64,000 bases of DNA from Tetraselmis striata (Eukaryota; Chlorophyta; Chlorodendrophyceae; Chlorodendrales; Chlorodendraceae). The notes below the pieces were generated by a model. It made no database searches and was not told the DNA's origin. It worked only from the letters and a program-made list of their open reading frames with translations. The stretch covers positions 1 through 64,000 of the forward strand of contig VCJN01003152.1 in the NCBI GenBank assembly GCA_006384855.1, given 5' to 3'. This document shows positions 4,256 through 43,313 of this stretch, in pieces (position 1 is the stretch's first letter; each line of letters begins with the position of its first letter). The position numbers were made by a program, and so were the translations under genes.

Positions 4256-6468
4256 TGCTGCCCTGGCTCCACAGGACCGAACGATAGCGCATGTGGCTGG
4301 GACGGGGGCTGAGTCATCTTCACCTATAGCTGTCAGATGCGCCGGGTGTGGTGGTGGACTGGTGGGGTGTGACTATGTGTCAGTGACTGCGACCGCCTGC
4401 GCTGGCGGCCCGCGAGTACCATTAGCGACTAGTACCGGTAGTCGCTAGTTCCATCACGACGTCAAAATTATATTGGCATAACGCTTTCGATATTGCGCCT
4501 CTCTGCCGGTTGACCCGCGGCATATCGGTGGCATGAATTTACTTCACTTTAAATGGCTTTGGCGCGTTAACGATCGGAGGTGCGAAACCCGCGGTTGGCT
4601 CTCGACTCTTTATTAGTATTACTTCTGCATAAATAGCATATGCGCATACGGCTAGGTACAGGGTGTCAGTAACATCACTGGCACATAGTACACTGTGGCA
4701 CGTATACACGAGGCGTACGCGCTGACGTGTAGGGCATGTACCATCAGCGGGTACGCGTGGTATCCGAATACTTCCTTAGGTGCGAGGCCGCGCCGGCGGG
4801 TGACTAATGTGAGCATCGGGTACTCGTAAGGATTATTTAAAGGCGACGAGCCCCGTACACCTTAGCATTGTCTTCCATTTTTGCAGCAGTATATATTTTG
4901 TACGGGTTTGCATTACGAGGAATCGCTGTGGGTGACCTTATATATATATATTCATCAATTTATTCGTGGTCTATATGGTCCCCCCTCTGTTGCCCTATCC
5001 ACCCAGCGCCCCAATCGACACCCATATGAACCCGTATGTACTCGAACATTAATAACATTGTAGTGCATGACCTAATGATCCCCTTTATTTGCACACGTGT
5101 TCAGCAACACACATGCCCAATGCTGAACATTCGTGTTGTCCTGTAAGCAGCAATTTTAGGGATGGTGAGCAGGAGATGGGAAAGACATCCGCACGTAAAA
5201 ATATACGATTATGGATTATAAACAATGCCGTGTTGTCACCTGGTCTGTCACTGTCAGTGTCAATAATATCCATGCATGATGGACGACCATCCATCCATAG
5301 CGCGGTACTCTGCAGAAGCGACGTGGTCGTTATATCATCTGTGTTCGGAGCAATGCGTGGCCTACGCTGATCGCAATAGCATGGCATATTCACATATAAT
5401 TCAAGCGATGTAATATCAAAATATCAATATGTGAATATTTCGCAACGGACTGTCGGACTAACTTCAGTTCGACACGACCACATGGGACGCAAACCTGCCC
5501 AAATTATGCCAGCATGGTGTTATCTAGAAAATTTGTAGTGAGGTTCAGCTGATACTAATTCGCCGATTTGGTTTGAATAATGTCTTATTTGATGCACGCT
5601 CTGGCATTATTTGTAATGCCACCTTTGCTACTTTGCATTTGCCATTTAGAAGTACGTTGTGAGTAACGACATACTTCTTTGTCATCTTGCGATATGGGGT
5701 GCAAACGTGCCCAGATGATGCCATCATGCTACTGGTTTGTAAATATACAGATTATTATGTTACTTTCATGTCATCAGTTCATCACATTGCGTAGCGCAAC
5801 ATACTTCCAGTATGTCATTAGCTAATAACATCATTAATTTTTGAATGGGGCATGCCACGGTATGCTAAAGCACCCGCGCCTGCTTGTCACCCGATCCCGC
5901 GCGATTGTGTTGCCTTCTTGTATTGACCACGCGGGCTGGATCCCGCGCTTATGGAGTGACTGTCATTGATATGCACATCACGCGTGACGCAGCACATGCT
6001 GTGCTCTACTATTAATTTCAATAAATGTCAAGACTTTGGCTGATGACAAACGCAAATGCTCCGAAACCATGTACCGCGTCGCTCTTCGAGACATGTAGCC
6101 ACGCCACCTTGCTCGTCATGTTCATGCTCGGCGGGTTATCTTAAATCGTTGTCATGCTGCTCGTGCATGCCCCTGTGCCCGCTCTCATGGTTGTCCTCGT
6201 GTTTATCGCCTCGTGCCTCCTTGATTTCGGTGGCTCTATTAGCCAAGCGGGTGTAACACAGGCGACCGCACCCTGCATATATATAGCTTGGTGATGGCAA
6301 ACTCTGCGCCCCCAGTTGATCGTGCTGCCCTCTATCTATGACTGCTTGTGCAACATGCGCAGCTCCCGGCTGGCATGCCGTAAGTCTTGCACCCAACGTC
6401 CAGCGTCATGCCGACGCGCACCATGACGTAGCTGCGACGCTCGGCTATATTCATAGCACATTTATCCC
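4256..6468. other. AT-rich intergenic DNA
   Basis: About 2.2 kb of mostly low-GC sequence with short TA-rich runs (for example 4940-4951). Open frames are 60-100 codons and show no domain signature. Nothing is annotated. Confidence 0.5.
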
Positions 6469-34656: not shown

Positions 34657-36957
34657 ATGTCCTCCCGCAGCAGCGCAACCGCCCACGACGCGCCGCTGCC
34701 TGACGAGGAGGCGTCCCTCACCGGGGGCCGTCCGCTGTCGGATGCCGCCTGCCATACCGGCGCAGGCGCTTTCGCCGTGCCGGCCTCGCCGTCGCTGCTG
34801 TCGCCGCCGCGTGGGCCGGCGGGCTGGGGGCGCGGCCGCTCGGGGCTCTACGCCTTCCCCTGGACGCGCCTGCGGGAGGCCTTCTACGCCACGGTGATCG
34901 CCGTGCTGTGCGTGCTCGTGCTCGTGCTCGCCATCGCCCGGACGGGCAGCCGGCAGCTTGCGCCCTACTGCCTCTTCGCCGTCGGCGGCGGCTACATGGA
35001 AGGAAGTATGTTGCCTCCCTGATCTGCACGGGTTGGTACTAGCTCCTACATACGTTCTAGTCAGTGGGGAGACTGCGGTTGCCGATTCATCCCTGATGTA
35101 GTAGCGACTAACAAGTGCCAGAAGCGAGAGAGGAATTGGAAGAACAAGTAGAAAGTCGAGAGGTCCTGTAGCCCTACACGAGAAGCATGATTCTGGAAAC
35201 TTGCCGCTCAATTCCCACCCCCCCCCCCCCCCGGGAAAGAAAAAAACCTCTGTGCCAAACTGTGCGATTGATAGCCCAGTTGCCGCGCCCTCCCTCACCC
35301 GTTTCGGCCCTGTGCACCTCGTATCGTTGCAAGCCTCTCTTGTAAACGTGCTTGTGCTGAGCGCCCCCCCCCCCCCCCCCCCCCCCAACCGACAAATAGC
35401 CGCTTTCCCACAGGAGGATCGACTGGCATCGTCGGACTGCAACGCGGCGATCAAAGCGTACCTCACCGAGGGGCAGTACGAAACGGTGCGTGCCCCGTGC
35501 CGCAGGGGGAAGGGGCGGTGGCCCAGTGGGGGCAACGTGGGCGTGGGTGGTGTGTGCGCAGCGCCCCGGGCTGACGGGCCTCCGGGCTGACGGGGCGCAG
35601 GACGTGGAGACCGTGGCGCAGGACGCACTGGACGTGCTGCGCGGCCTGTCGGCGCCCAATGCCACCTACGTGCTCGTGTTTGACATCGACGAGACGGTGC
35701 TGTCCAACATGGCGGAGTTCGAGCACATGCGGTATGGGAAGAAGCCGTACGATGGCGCCTGGGAGCACGCGTGGCAGGTGGGTGCCCACGCACCTTGGTC
35801 AAGGAAGTGCGTCCAGATGGGGGATGTGGGGCACCACAGTAACATTACCCCCGCCACTGAGAGCAGCGCTGCTACGGGCGACGTCCATTGAACGTGGTGT
35901 GTGCTCCCAGCTCAACGCGACCGCGCCGGCACTGGAGCCCATGCTGCGCCTGTATGAGAGGGCCTTTGACATGGGGCTCAGCGTCACCTTCATCACCGGT
36001 GCGTGCGGCACGGCACGCCGGCCGACCTCGCCAGCAGACGAAAGTTCCCGCCCTGCCGTAGGGAGCAGCTTTCGGCCAAGGGGCCCCTGGTGGAGAATGA
36101 CCGCATGACCTCATTCGCCCCATCCGCCTCTTGCTCCCTCCTGCACCCCCATTGGCAATCCTCACTGCCCGCTCACACATCGTCCGGATGTTTCGCTCCC
36201 AGGCCGAGCCGAGTGGTCCCGCAACGCCACACAGTTCAACCTCAAGCACAGTGGCTTTGGCGAGCAGTGCGCCCCGGAGCAGTGCGCGCCTCCCGCTGTC
36301 CTTCGGCACATGCGCTGCAGCCGTTGGCCTCCCCCACCAGCCATCCTACTCCGCCTGTCTGCAGCCTGATGGCCGCTTTCCATACCATTTACCACTCAGT
36401 CACCCATGCATGTGGACCGCATGTTGGCGCTCCCATCCATCGTTGGTTTCCTCATCGACCTTCTTTCCACGGAGCGCATTGCCGTCAGGGCGAGGGTTCC
36501 GTCCCTCATGTGATGGCCTCGCCGCATCCCCCTGCAGGCCTCGCAATGGCAGCAGCGTCTGCTACGAGCGCCTGGACTTGCGCGAGGACGGCGACAAGCG
36601 CCCGGCGTCAGTGTACAAGCCAGAGCGGAGAGGTCGGCTGGAGGTGCGCGACCCCATTTGCCTCCAGAATCGCTCTGTCAGCGGGGTGCGGTTACTTTTG
36701 GCTTGTCAACATCTGTATGGCTATCAACCGTGGCTGTGGTGCCCCCCCCCCCCCCCCCCCCTCCCCAAGCCCCCTCTTAGCCCCTCTGATCTCCACGATG
36801 CGCAATGCTGTAACACCGCCGTGCTGTGGCGTTGATGGCACAGGCGGAGGGCTATATCCTTCTGGCCAGTTTCGGCGACCAGTGGTCCGATCTCGTGGGT
36901 GAGCACAGCGCGCAGGCGAACTTCAAACTACCCAACCCGATGTATTATCTACTCTAG
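34657..36957 (+). CDS. Class B (HAD) acid phosphatase, membrane-anchored
   Basis: Plant-type acid phosphatase (PF03767 family). Exons: 34657-about 35005, 35414-35485, 35601-35777, 35911-35998, 36203-36266 (or 36281), 36538-36643, 36844-36957. Exon 1 encodes a Ser/Pro/Ala-rich tail and one membrane helix (residues about 76-94, TVIAVLCVLVLVLAIA). Catalytic motifs: VLVFDIDETVLSNMAEFEHM (nucleophile and acid Asp of DxDxT); VTFITGRAEWSRNATQFNLK (motif II Thr); CYERLDLRED then VYKPERRGRLE (motif III Lys); ASFGDQWSDLVG (motif IV Asp). The end is FKLPNPMYYLL, a family signature. A type II orientation would place the enzyme in the secretory lumen or outside the cell, hydrolysing phosphate monoesters. 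The first splice is uncertain: the strong donor at 35005 leaves one base that does not phase with exon 2, so a small exon may be missing. Three introns carry poly(C) runs (35218, 35365, 36740). It converges with FAS2. Confidence 0.85.
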
Positions 36958-37795: not shown

Positions 37796-40700
37796 CTACA
37801 CGGGAAGAGGAGCGATGCGCCGCCTCTTGTCCGGTGCTGCGGCGGTGGGCACATCGAGCTTGCTCTGCGACACAGCGGACTTGCCCATGCTGCACGCCAG
37901 GGCGGCGATGCCCTTGGCAGGGGCCACGGGCTCTGGAGTGATCCTCTTCACTGCGGCTATGGACTTTAGCTTGGCGGCATCGCTTCCGGGCTCAGCGGCC
38001 GGCGAGCCGGTCAGCTGCGCTTGGGCGGCGTCGTTGGCAGCGGCCGCGGCGGAGTTGCCGGTGCTGCGTGCCAGGGCGGCGATGCCCTTGGCAGGGGCCA
38101 CGGGCTCTGGAGTGATCCTCTTCACTGCGGCTATGGACTTTAGCTTGGCGGCATCGCTTCCGGGCTCAGCGGCCGGCGAGCTGGTCAGCTGCGCTTGGGC
38201 GGCGTCGTTGGCAGCGGCCGCGGCGGCGTTGCCGGTGCTGGACGCCAGGGCGGCGATGCCCTTGGCAGGGGCCACGCGCTCTGGAGTGATCCTCTTCACT
38301 GCGGCTGCGGACTTGGGCTTGGCGGCATCGCTTCCGGGCTCAGTGGCCGGCGAGCCGGTCAGCTGCGCTTGGGCAGCGTCGTTGGCGGCGGCCGCGGCGG
38401 CGTTGCCGGTGCTGCGTGCCAGGGCGGCGATGCCCTTCTTGGGAGGTGCGGACTCTGTTACGACGCCACTGGCGCTGGCGGCGTGACTCGCGCCATCGCC
38501 GGCTGTCTTGCATGGCATCATCGCCTGCACGAGAAAGGGAGAGTTAAAAAATAGCGCAGCCGCTAGTGAAAGCCAAATGTGCGAAAGGACAACATGCTCC
38601 TCTTTATGGATGTATGCGCACGAGAATCCACGCACTGATCCTACCTCGGGCGCGATCCTCTTCTTGGAGGGCACAGCCGCCGCAACATCGCCGCCTGCGC
38701 CGGCAGGACTGACGCCATCGCCGGGCGCCTTGCACGCATTCATTGCCTGCGGGGGGAAATGACATCATCATACTCACTTTGAGCCACGTCTGGGTGAATG
38801 TAGTCGTTGGTTAGCGCGTAATCGTGGGTGTTGGACGCCCCCCCCCCCCCCCCCCCCCCCACCCCCCAACCCCCCCCCGCCCGCTCTCCCCATGTGGGGA
38901 GGATTAACAATATAATATTCGAAATACATTGATGTACCAAGAACACTAGCGACAGTGTTGAGTCAAAAACACTAGCGACAGTGCAATATTATGTGTGCAT
39001 GTGTGTATGGCCGCAGAGGACTCAGCAATACATCAGCGTCTCCGCGTCCTGACTGTCTTAGTGCCGATCGATGCAGCTGTTTGTGCCATGCATGCCACGC
39101 CACCGCCGCGCACCTCTGGCGTGATCCTCATGGTCGCCTTTGCCGGCTCGCTGCCAGGCTGCATCGCCTGCAAGGGGATGAGCGTACGAGTGATTACGAA
39201 CACGTTATCAACAGCTGGTTCCAGAGTGCCGGCAAGAGCGCATGCCTCTCCCTACGCATGCTCGTAGGTCTCACCCCAGCAGCACAGCAGCAGAGGCGTC
39301 CAATCGGGCAATGCCGCCACTCATTGCCCCAACAGCTGTCGAAACTCTCAACCTCTTTATAAGTCATTACGTGAGTAATGTACCCTAGCAGTGATATTTC
39401 AAACTGTCAGTCCTAACAAAACCACACACACCCTACAAACCTACCTGACGCCCAGAGGTTCATGGCCTCCCAATCCTTCCACTTAAAATTGGCACCCCAG
39501 AGCAATAGCCGCCATTCATGCCATGCCGGCACTGCGTACCTCTGGCGTGATCCTCTTTGGCGTCTTGGCCGGCTGGCTGCTGGGCTGCACCGCCTCGGGC
39601 ACAATCCTGCGCGCCGCAGTGGGCTCCGAGGAAGGCTTGATGGCAGCAGCAGTTTCCGCTTGCCCGGCCGCCGCGCCCTCCCGCTGGCCGACAGCAGCCT
39701 CAGCGCTAGTCTCCCCTGCCTCCACCTCCGCCGCGGCCGTGGCGCCAGCGTTCGCCTCCTCCGCCTCTCTCGCCCGCGCCGGGCGGAGATGCGCCGGCAG
39801 CAGCCCCGCCTCCAGCGGCTCCCCCAGCTCGCCCGGCTCAAACTGGGCGATGCTGCAAACACAGGCACAGGTGTCTCTGCGTCCGGCCACCAACAATCCT
39901 GCCACCATTTCGTATTTCGAATCTTATAAAGTACTGAATTCGAGTTTATGTCACCCGAGGGGGGTGAGAAGGGGGGGCAGACAAGCAGCGTCTCGAGGCT
40001 GCGTCCGGGGCTCACCTGCAGTAGCCGTCCTGGGAAGAGCAGACCAGCGCGAGGCCGTCCGGGGACCAGGCGAGGTCGGTGATGGCGGCGTAGTGCAGCA
40101 TGCCCAGGAACGCCAGCGGGGCGTTGTCCTGCAGCACCAGGGGCAGGTGGTCAGCAGAGCGGCGGATCCTCCAAATTAACGGCAATGGAAAGAAATCGAA
40201 ATAAAGCATGATTTTTTGAAAATCTGTTGACATGAATGGGAACAGTGTAAGACTGCGCCACGCTCCTCTTGCATGCCTTTCGTCTACCACTGGCGTTTTT
40301 TGTAAGCCATGCTCAGGCTCTCGTTTTAATCTCCTTGGCTCACTTAAGTTTCAAAATGAATACATATCACATATGCAATAAGATTAGAATGCGTGTTTTC
40401 TGGACAAAGTCGTAGACCGGATTTGGTTGGTTTGCTCAGCCGCTAAATGATATGCAATAAGCAGAATCATATATTAGGGGGTGGGAGCGTGGCCGCGGCG
40501 ATTCCACATGCGCACGCACGAATAAAGCACACAAGGCAATGGAACAGGGGCGCGCGCTGGGGGTTGATCGCGATGCACCTGCGTGCTGTACAGGGCGACG
40601 CTGGAGGCAGAGGCCACCGCGAAGACCATGCGGTACGGCAATTCGATGGCGGGGCTGGTGACGGCCTCGTCGGCGCTCGCCAGCTTGAAAAGCACGGGGC

Positions 40701-43313
40701 AGAAACGCACCGCCATCGTTGCCTGCGAGGGGGCGCAAATGGGCCACATGAACCAGCGAATCCTTGGTTGATGAAACGGGACATATGACAGCGTTGGGCA
40801 TGTTGCATCTAGATTCGTGCGGGCTGATGTACCTCGCCCGGGAAGGGCAGAAGGGCGGCGGGCGCGCTCCTGTGCCGTTGAGCGGGGGGGGGGGGGGGGG
40901 GGGGTGGAGGGGGCAACCGGGAGCCGGGCAGGATAAAGGGAGGGAGGTTAGCACTGTGCGGCATTTGGGCAGCGGCTGTGGCATGAGCAAGTCTTTTGCC
41001 ACGATCCAGCCGTATCAATGCATCGATCTCAGCGCCATCCTCTCGATGTGCTGTCAATCGAATTCCCCCTGCCCCCCTTCCCCATAACCCCCCCTTCCCA
41101 CCCCCTCCCCCCTGCCCCCCGGCGGCCTTTTCCCATCATCAGCACCAGCAACAGCACCCCCCCCCCCCCCCCCCCCCCCTTCCCCATCATCAGCACCAGC
41201 ACCAGCACCAGCACCAGCACCAGCACCAGCAGCACCACCATCACCACTACCCCTCCCTCTGGTGGACAGGGCGCCTGATACCCTCTCCACCATGAATCCC
41301 CCTCAGCATGCACCCAATGGCCTTAAAACGCACCACTCGCCGCGCTTGAACAGGAAGGCGCCATCCGTGAACTGCTCCCCCATGGTGGCGCGCAGCCGGC
41401 CTGCTGGCACCGCTAGGAACGAGCCTACCACAAGGAGGGGTCAAGGGGAAAACATAGTCAGCGTTGGCTGGCAAAGCAGAGGCAGCAGCAGGGGGGGGGG
41501 GGGGGGGGGGGAGGTTAACTGCTTCACCGCCGACATGAAAGGCATAAACATAACTGCGTTAGAAGCAGAGAGTTGAGCATATCATATGTAGGTAATGTGA
41601 ATATATGCCATGACAGCATTGTGACTGGTAATTACGTGGCAACAAATCGCAGATAGAGGACATGTGCACATCATGCGCTGCGGCCATTGCGGGCTGGTAG
41701 GAGGACTGCGCCCGCCCGCCCCTACCATCAGGTGACCATGACAGGCGCTTGTAGAACCCGGAATTCTCGTCGCGGAAGAGGTGGTCGAAGCTCTGCTTAT
41801 CTCCGCCCTCCGCGCCGCCGGCGCTGGCCACCTTGATCTTGCTCATCACCGCCTGGCAGGACAGGTCGCTCACGCGCGCGACTGCGGGCTGCGCTGCGGC
41901 GGCTGCGGCTTTCTTGCCGATCGCGGTGGGGCGGGGTCCGTACACCCGGCACGTGCGGTCTGCGCCCTGGGTCACCACCATCTCCCCCAGCGGGTCCCAG
42001 GCGACGCCCTGTCGCAACGCCACACAACCCAACCGGTCAGTGTCAAGGAGTTTCACAATGATTAGTACAGGTCTATTCAGAGCTGTATTCTTTCTTTCTC
42101 TGAGCGATTCTTCTGTCTGCACTCGGCGGGTAGGGGACTTGCAGCACCACCTGCGCGTGTGTTTGCAGGAGGCCATGCAGGAGCGGTTTGGGCTCGGCGT
42201 TGCACGCAAGTTCGGAGTTTAGCACCTATTAAAGGGGGTGAGCACATGGGCACGGCAGCGCGGCGGCATGGCGGCACCCCACCTGGATGAAATGCTTGTG
42301 GTCCTGCAGGCTGGCCTTCCCCTTGGCCGCCCGCACATCCCACAGCAGCGCGGTGTTCTCCACCGATCCGGACAGCAGCGCTGTGGCGTCGGGTGCCCAG
42401 GCAAGGTCGTACACGTCACAGCTGTGCCCGCGCAGCGTGGCGCTGTACTTCCACAGCGCCTCCTCCTCCCCCTCCTCCGCGCCGAACGCAGTGTCCAATG
42501 CGCCACTCCCCCCATCCCCGCGAGGCTGCCATAGCAGCAGCTCCCCCGCATCGCCAGCGGACGCCAGCAGGTCGCCCGAGGGCGAGAATCGGATGGCGTT
42601 GACGGAGCGGGTGTGGTTTGTGAGCGTGCTGAGGTGCTTCACACCCGGGCTGCCCTCGCTGCTGGTCAGCACCTTGCGGGGGGGGGGGGGGGGGGGGGGG
42701 GCATATGCTTAAAGAGAGAGAGAGAGGGGGAGAGAGAGAGGGCTTACATAAAGCTGCAGGTGGTTGTAAGGGCATCACCCCCTCGCTATTGGATAAACAG
42801 CTGAGCCCTCCACGTTTTAAGAGAATAACTCTTTGGTCCCAAAGAATGCTCGGTAGCTTCGCTGAAAGGCGCAGGGAATCGCCAGCGAAGGCGGGACGGT
42901 GTGCGTTGGTAGTATCTGCTAGTGCCCTTGCACACACCTATGCACCTTGACCGGAGTATTCTCACATAGCAGGCACGGCATTCGACGTATAGTACCACCA
43001 AGCACACGCTAGGCGAATTCACACACTCCTGGCCGGTCGATCAGTGCTCACTCCCCCCCTATCCCAGTCTCAGGTGTGCACGGCGCCAGGCGGCCGAAAG
43101 GTCTGCTTGCAAGTGACAAAACGAGGGAGACAGGGCCTGTGGAGTATCTTGGGGGAGAAGGGGGGGCGGGCACACAGACGGCGCAGATATCACCTTCCAG
43201 AGTCGAATCTCTCGGTCCCCTCCCGCTGTGGCGAGCGTGCCGTCCGGGTGAAAGTCCACCGAGTACACCGGCTCCTTCCCGTGCCACACCACTTGGACAG
43301 TGTCGGCACGCAT
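37796..43313 (-). CDS. CAF-1 subunit p60/FAS2 with eight B-domain-like motifs
   Basis: Histone chaperone CAF-1 middle subunit, which delivers H3-H4 to replicating DNA and binds ASF1. Eleven exons, all in phase: 43313-43194, 42672-42283, 42008-41726, 41424-41334, 40869-40833, 40722-40579, 40128-40016, 39852-39540, 39167-39114, 38746-38645, 38524-37796; about 791 residues. WD40 part (1-about 400): [16 protein letters not shown] at the N-terminus, [109 protein letters not shown]; all fit p60/FAS2. After [11 protein letters not shown] comes a C-terminal extension of nearly 400 residues that is Ala/Pro-rich and probably disordered. It carries RRIVPE (474), KRITPE (492), MRITPE (510), KRIAPE (544), KRITPE (626, 684, 742) and a terminal [10 protein letters not shown]. 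Such RRIxP motifs bind ASF1 in HIRA and p60. FAS2 homologues are, as I recall, much shorter. A 37-nt exon encodes [12 protein letters not shown]. Confidence 0.92.
37897..38430. repeat. 174-bp coding tandem repeat in FAS2
   Basis: Three full units plus a partial one with an exact 174-bp period. The segment ccagggcggcgatgccctt starts at 37897, 38071, 38245 and 38419. On the coding strand each unit encodes 58 residues, from [12 protein letters not shown] through an Ala-rich helix to [12 protein letters not shown]. Divergence between copies is low, pointing to recent expansion or homogenisation. Confidence 0.95.
38839..38880. repeat. Interrupted poly(C) tract in FAS2 intron
   Basis: A run of about 22 C followed by shorter C runs (accccccaacccccccccg) inside the intron between exons 8 and 9. 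On the coding strand it is G-rich. Confidence 0.9.
41181..41240. repeat. (CAGCAC)n repeat in FAS2 intron
   Basis: Perfect and near-perfect CAGCAC hexamers directly after a poly(C) run. A shorter version, catcatcagcaccagcaac, sits just before that run, so the block looks duplicated around it. Confidence 0.9.

Follow-up and report, generated by a model that had tools for sequence, protein, structure and literature searches.

Introduction

How many ASF1 docking sites can a single CAF-1 p60 subunit carry? This question is raised by a gene in the window, the 64-kb stretch of Tetraselmis DNA analyzed here, which lies within a 224-Mb assembly of 2903 contigs. The first-pass annotation described the product as a FAS2/CAF-1 p60 homologue with eight B-domain-like RRI-x-P motifs, took one or two copies to be the usual state, and proposed that such a tail would make CAF-1 a multivalent ASF1 binder.

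Results

The gene was modeled manually with 11 exons (Table 1). All 10 introns are GT-AG, and the reading frame is maintained throughout. Residues 1–402 matched Pfam PF24105 (Beta-prop_CAF1B_HIR1) with an E value of 2e-113 and 379.6 bits against a cut-off of 80.5, which identifies a seven-bladed WD40 propeller of the CAF1B/HIR1 type at the N-terminus. Human CHAF1B (8iqf_B) was the top PDB match (E 5.2e-93), with local agreement that includes the CHAF1B stretch CPGKATLAVRCCPVYF, and yeast HIR1 matched at E 2.5e-30. The product is nearer to CHAF1B/FAS2 than to HIRA and carries no C-terminal Hira domain; the Hira-domain match of this genome lies on a different contig (C1784). The Tetraselmis protein grouped with chlorophytes (42 rows, support 98/95) in a tree whose 62 FAS2 proteins were picked by hand, with a bias toward multi-motif ones and no HIRA rows. 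Nearest to it by path, at a place within the chlorophytes that the tree does not settle, were the metagenome protein P0013, Elliptochloris, Trebouxia, and Coccomyxa. Judged by sequence, the gene is the CAF-1 p60/FAS2 orthologue, and this part of the first-pass annotation was borne out. The last exon and exon 2 each gave one match in the assembly. A second FAS2 haplotype or paralogue was considered and rejected on the basis of these single matches.

Table 1. Features of the FAS2 locus and its surroundings, in window coordinates
Feature	Position	Strand	Core Arg (aa)	Description
FAS2 / CAF-1 p60 (CHAF1B) gene	37796..43313	-		11 exons, 791 aa; manual model
Exon 1	43313-43194	-
Exon 2	42672-42283	-
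Exon 3	42008-41726	-
Exon 4	41424-41334	-
Exon 5	40869-40833	-
Exon 6	40722-40579	-
Exon 7	40128-40016	-
Exon 8	39852-39540	-
Exon 9	39167-39114	-		18 aa; copy of the final 54 nt of exon 8 (local alignment)
Exon 10	38746-38645	-
Exon 11	38524-37796	-		stop included
Motif 1	39588..39611	-	475	RRIVPEAV; exon 8
Motif 2	39540..39557	-	493	KRITPE at end of exon 8; AM from exon 9 (39167-39162)
Motif 3	39114..39131	-	511	MRITPE at end of exon 9; AM from exon 10 (38746-38741)
Motif 4	38645..38662	-	545	KRIAPE at end of exon 10; AM from exon 11 (38524-38519)
Motif 5	38273..38296	-	627	KRITPERV; exon 11, tandem unit 1
Motif 6	38099..38122	-	685	KRITPEPV; exon 11, tandem unit 2
Motif 7	37925..37948	-	743	KRITPEPV; exon 11, tandem unit 3
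Motif 8	37799..37822	-	785	RRIAPLPV; extreme C-terminus; sole motif without Glu after Pro
Tandem repeat	37875..38437	-		174 bp (58 aa), in frame, 3.2 copies, 94% matches (Tandem Repeats Finder)
IAALA elements	37871..38434	-		four GIAALA[RSC]S[TM]G[NK]xA, at aa 580, 638, 696, 754 (PSSM)
Poly-C tract	38838-38882	+		intron 9
Neighbor gene	about 35400-36900	+		tail-to-tail with FAS2

Long poly-C/poly-G tracts occur in several introns of FAS2 and of the neighboring gene; the tract in intron 9 has matches on many contigs and swamped a DNA search with the whole tail. The exons of the neighbor read FDIDETVLSNMAEFEHMRYGKKPYDGAWEHAWQ, which would fit a HAD-type acid phosphatase of plants (VSP-like); no Pfam match was obtained with two short pieces of the gene.

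The FAS2 tail past residue 410 consists of 381 residues (29% Ala, 10% Pro, 8% Ser) and, being rich in these three amino acids, is probably disordered, composition being the basis for this assignment. It carries eight R-I-x-P motifs with successive spacings of 18, 18, 34, 82, 58, 58, and 42 residues. Together they cover 310 residues and four exons, namely exons 8–11 (39852-37796, minus strand) rather than the exons 8–10 given at first. Val or Met stands six residues past the core Arg in all eight. Lys or Arg precedes the core Arg in seven motifs, Met taking its place in motif 3, so that the basic-basic-Ile core of the B-domain (R-R/K-R-I) is present in seven of eight. All eight also have Pro or Leu two residues past the Ile and a hydrophobic residue five past it, a feature that we derived from CHAF1B/FAS2 homologues and not from a publication. 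Thr-Pro occurs inside five of the motifs, with V and A also found at the Thr place. The pattern [KR]I.P..[VILM] was observed eight times in the tail, whereas 20,000 composition-preserving shuffles gave no motif in 19,580 cases, one in 416, and two in 4. The eight-motif array is not a product of chance. The motif number and placement in the first-pass annotation were thus confirmed, and its term B-domain-like holds for the basic-Arg-Ile-x-Pro core and the +6 hydrophobic residue. When two of the three tandem copies were omitted, the six remaining copies were identical at R, I, and P in 15/15 pairs and always had V or M at +6, while most linker columns were 0.0–0.4 identical. A few downstream columns were higher (+8 at 0.6, +4 at 0.67), which the origin of exon 9 as a copy of the exon 8 end explains in part.

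The exon structure and the repeats record how the array grew. RI[TA]PE, followed by a phase-0 donor, closes exons 8, 9, and 10, and Ala-Met opens exons 9, 10, and 11, so that the three intron-straddling motifs are rebuilt at each junction; skipping of exon 9 or 10 would still rebuild a complete motif. Exon 9 and the end of exon 8 are identical at 45/54 nt, and their alignment scores 63, none of 1000 shuffles scoring above 29. The 5′ ends of the introns past exons 8 and 9 are also alike (2/1000 shuffles reached this likeness), and the acceptor-side flanks of exons 9–11 are not, with 105 to 793 of 1000 shuffles reaching their scores, so that the exon 9 duplication has only approximate limits. 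In exon 11, each 58-aa tandem unit comprises a KGIAALAxSxGN element, a linker, and KRITPE[RP]V, which gives the exon an order of element and motif, four times over, starting with an element. The units vary at 10 of 58 codons, none of which falls in the seven core codons (0/10, chance 0.24), and dN between units (9/126) is close to dS (3/48). The tandem units are too recent for these values to prove constraint on the motif. With three motifs lying in the tandem repeat and exon 9 copying exon 8, the eight motifs are not eight independent events; the array was enlarged by duplication.

To place the number eight, motifs matching [KR][IV].[PL]..[VILM] were counted in the tails of 181 proteins, comprising Tetraselmis FAS2 and 180 homologues, some partial or fused, drawn as the best 120 of each of two protein searches (1300 and 853 passed). 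Zero, one, two, three, and four motifs were found in 9, 100, 36, 12, and 18 proteins, respectively, and five, six, seven, and eight in 2, 2, 1, and 1, respectively, the last being Tetraselmis, the maximum of the set. Shuffles of each tail predict far less than one motif. The strict pattern also caught unlikely sites, amounting to two of the seven in P0040, one of the six in P0034, and one in P0130. The 51 chlorophyte homologues (41 tree rows and 10 assigned by best BLAST match) had a mean of 2.7 motifs and a mode of 4, with zero in 3 (two of them partial), one in 9, two in 13, three in 6, four in 17, five in 2, and six in 1, all below the eight of Tetraselmis. The other 129 homologues had one motif in 91 cases and two in 23. 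One or two copies, as first stated, are therefore usual among most sampled land plants and vertebrates, whereas chlorophytes depart from this. Parachlorella kessleri has six motifs, Micractinium five, and Nannochloris and Chlorella vulgaris four; the two Volvox proteins sampled have four each, Ceratopteris three, and Cryptomeria two. Motif 1 (RRIVPEAV) matches the motif that comes first in Nannochloris, Auxenochlorella, and other tails, and the FAS2 proteins of Trebouxia and P0013 also end in a motif without Glu after Pro. When relatives were sought with the tail alone, not one of 8000 scored candidates reached E <= 0.001. Since arrays of four are common in chlorophytes, the Tetraselmis tail is the extreme of a wider trend; it is the longest B-motif array of the 181 proteins and no isolated oddity.

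Further tails of the set are worth recording. P0034 and P0040, near-identical metagenome proteins that group with vertebrate rows, have six and seven strict matches, respectively, of the RRVxLTPV kind, and their array seems to have expanded independently, in a lineage that is not green. P0014, from Klebsormidium nitens, has three strict motifs and four RI[TS]P sites without the +6 hydrophobic residue (RRITPVASAP twice, RRITPSPSPP, and RRISPSPCKP).

Glu follows Pro in seven of the eight Tetraselmis motifs. This RIxPE form accounts for 34/137 motifs in the 51 chlorophytes versus 6/172 in the other 129 proteins, the six being limited to four metagenome proteins, and it is thus chlorophyte-enriched. 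Pfam HIRA_B (PF09453, cut-off 21 bits) matched neither the Tetraselmis tail nor five motif peptides, and gave no match at the FAS2 locus in a six-frame genome search. No Tetraselmis motif, RIxPE or terminal, was recognized by it, and neither was the Arabidopsis motif RITPMAIDP; as it also misses Arabidopsis, the Tetraselmis negative is weak evidence. The tail of the chlorophyte FAS2 P0122 was matched by HIRA_B in three stretches at 30.9 bits, above the cut-off. Tested as single peptides, two of its four motifs matched, each of the RRITP[TI] type and each scoring below the cut-off. Among the PDB matches to motif peptides there was no B-domain peptide bound to ASF1. By their residue pattern, we regard the RIxPE copies as putative ASF1-binding motifs.

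The IAALA elements of exon 11 alternate with motifs 5–8 and recall a C-terminal element of chlorophyte FAS2 proteins, roughly [GSN][IVL]Ax[LM]AxxAGxxA. This element occurs in many proteins (e.g., P0012, P0121, P0124, and P0139), with SIAALAMLAGQNAA and GGIAAMAAAAGKQAA as examples; inspected C-termini without it include those of Trebouxia, Botryococcus, Coccomyxa, and Auxenochlorella. A PSSM was built from 25 chlorophyte elements hand-picked among the inspected C-termini. The best Tetraselmis copy scored 16.4 bits, reached by 4/3000 shuffles, at the lower end of the leave-one-out range of the seeds (16.3–33.5). The remaining three scored 12.2, 12.2, and 9.0 bits; 45, 45, and 207 of 3000 shuffles, respectively, did as well. 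The resemblance is suggestive; if it reflects homology, what was duplicated as the 58-aa unit would be a composite of a B-motif and the chlorophyte element. Two other readings of the element were considered and set aside. A helix mimicking H3, as in CDAN1 and TLK2, requires Leu and Arg residues contacting ASF1 V94/L96 and D54/D88 (PMC11911400), and the 25 chlorophyte elements have no conserved Arg. KGIAALA could also be read as what is left of a B-motif after changes of R to G and P to A, but the chlorophyte C-terminal element is the better fit.

The putative partner is present in the genome. ASF1 is encoded at two loci, C818 (about 4500-6200) and C2626 (about 89500-91200), which are 96% identical across 2.7 kb and may be either alleles on allelic contigs or recent copies; the FAS2 exons tested are single-copy. 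The spliced product aligned without gaps to human ASF1A (E 2.2e-52) and retains E36, D37, D58, V60, and V62, the D37 codon being split by an intron. ASF1 E36 and D37 are critical for B-domain binding (PMC8854732), D37 and D58 contact the basic pair of the B-domain (PMC11911400), and changing D37 or L60/V62 to alanine abolishes binding of the Cac2 B-domain to Asf1 (PMC3526290). By alignment, the groove residues that contact the B-domain are conserved in Tetraselmis ASF1. The CAF-1 large subunit is represented by a CAF1A_dimeriz match on C2451 (E 1.3e-7). The Hira match on C1784 covers the C-terminal domain only, and the strict motif was not found in the 9.9 kb inspected there.

Discussion

We favor, at a probability of roughly 0.55, the reading that the Tetraselmis p60 tail is an array of B-domain-type motifs docking several ASF1-H3-H4 complexes. 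Each motif would occupy the groove that ASF1 has on the side away from its histone-binding face, placing the basic pair near D37 and D58, and the V60/V62 surface would receive the Ile and the +6 Val/Met. One CAF-1 could then hold, or quickly recapture, several ASF1-H3-H4 complexes, whose histones would be passed to the CAF-1 large subunit at replication forks. If all eight sites exist, up to eight loaded ASF1 molecules could be held per CAF-1, with fast rebinding. We infer the ASF1 binding, the number of occupied sites, and the benefit to replication-coupled assembly from the motifs and the conserved groove. One ASF1 presumably offers one groove and takes one B-domain, so that the gain would lie in capacity and local concentration and not in cooperative avidity, unless ASF1 is itself clustered. 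The proposed multivalence would accordingly hold for the p60 side, where several candidate sites share one tail, and presumably not for ASF1. Against a docking array stand the HIRA_B misses, the RIxPE form, and the ASF1 proteins of Arabidopsis and Tetrahymena, for which no link to CAF-1 was found in vivo or by mass spectrometry, respectively, as discussed below.

A more modest reading is that one motif, most likely the terminal RRIAPLPV, is the ASF1-binding B-domain and that the RIxPE copies are a repeat expansion, kept by drift or binding too weakly to have an effect. The recent tandem duplication of three copies with dN close to dS, the copying of the exon 8 end into exon 9, and the GC-rich, disordered character of the tail would all suit such an expansion, and the terminal motif alone has no Glu after Pro, as at the ends of the Trebouxia and P0013 proteins, while the RIxPE form goes unmatched by HIRA_B. 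However, the terminal motif peptide is not matched either, RIxPE recurs across chlorophytes, and the older copies retain R, I, P, and the +6 hydrophobic residue while most linker columns have diverged; on balance we find this reading doubtful. The same chlorophyte bias can be turned to another end, namely that RIxPE is a distinct chlorophyte-enriched motif, serving another partner or forming a regulated site such as a basic nuclear-targeting patch or a Thr-Pro for proline-directed kinases. The excess of Glu after Pro in chlorophytes, the Thr-Pro in five motifs, and an Arabidopsis ASF1 with no detectable CAF-1 use point that way, but the core and +6 residue follow the B-domain pattern, HIRA_B recognizes a similar array in the relative P0122, and the Thr is not kept, which makes the proposal an improbable one.

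There is very little chance, in our estimate, that the array is an artefact of a wrong gene model, an assembly duplication of the 174-bp repeat, or exon skipping that leaves fewer motifs. Tandem repeats are prone to mis-assembly, intron 9 holds its long poly-C tract, and exons 9 and 10, both phase 0, could drop out of the mRNA without a frameshift. Yet the introns are all GT-AG and in frame, every tail junction rebuilds a motif, the last exon is single in the assembly, and six motifs would be left even without exons 9 and 10. Differences at 10 codons among the tandem copies show that a single unit was not read three times.

The docking array could be one form of a broader arrangement, in which chlorophyte p60 is a histone-supply depot whose RIxPE array loads many ASF1-H3-H4 complexes per fork-bound CAF-1. 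In Tetraselmis this depot would be extended by a module of B-motif plus helix-like IAxLAxxxGxxA, the latter touching a second surface of ASF1, the histones, or CAF-1. Splicing could adjust how many docking sites the protein has, since leaving out exons 9 and 10 preserves the frame. We regard this larger scheme as speculative and unlikely as a whole. Tetrasome formation requires two H3-H4 dimers, and the docking array touches the question of whether CAF-1 is fed by ASF1 dimer by dimer or from a loaded reserve. Tails with 1, 2, 4, 6, and 8 motifs across green algae and plants provide a natural titration series for it. Open-access literature searches, covering titles and some passages with subscription papers outside their scope, returned no multi-motif algal p60.

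Within the p60 family, CHAF1B, FAS2, and Cac2 likewise combine the orthologous propeller with one or more B-domain-like motifs in the C-terminal tail, and Tetraselmis also has one at the extreme C-terminus. Yeast Cac2 requires its B domain for Asf1 binding, with a KD of 2–2.6 µM that tightens to 0.7 µM on H3/H4-carrying Asf1, and Asf1 departs after CAF-1 takes the histones (PMC3526290). Human CHAF1B has two motifs (RRVTLNTL and RRINLTPL) and Arabidopsis suecica FAS2 has one (RKRITPMAID), in contrast to the eight, mostly RIxPE, of Tetraselmis. Other chlorophyte FAS2 proteins share the RIxPE and RITPxP classes and the arrays in the tail; those of Parachlorella, Micractinium, Nannochloris, and Chlorella vulgaris differ in having 4–6 strict motifs. 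Many chlorophyte proteins end in IAxLAxxAGxxA past the last motif, whereas the Tetraselmis protein ends in a motif.

In Arabidopsis, IP-MS and genetics gave no evidence for association of ASF1 with CAF-1, and asf1a1b fas2 triple mutants were not recoverable, which the authors take as a sign of independent pathways (PMC9666630). The proposed docking array bears on this puzzle, as green algae may have kept or strengthened a link that land plants dropped. Tetrahymena thermophila Caf1b is likewise a p60 with more than two B-like motifs, each of which pulls down Asf1 in vitro (PMC10741905), and was already on record as a departure from one or two copies. It differs from Tetraselmis in having three motifs and not eight, two of them called non-conservative (PMC10741905), and in belonging to another lineage; in two mass spectrometry studies, Asf1 was not found with Caf1b/Cac2. 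A precedent for one polypeptide with several B-domains engaging more than one ASF1 is Codanin-1 (CDAN1), whose two B-domains hold two ASF1 molecules (PMC11911400). CDAN1 is unrelated to p60, being a MIF4G protein; it also bears H3-mimic helices, and the ASF1 that it keeps sequestered in the cytosol is free of histones (PMC11911400).
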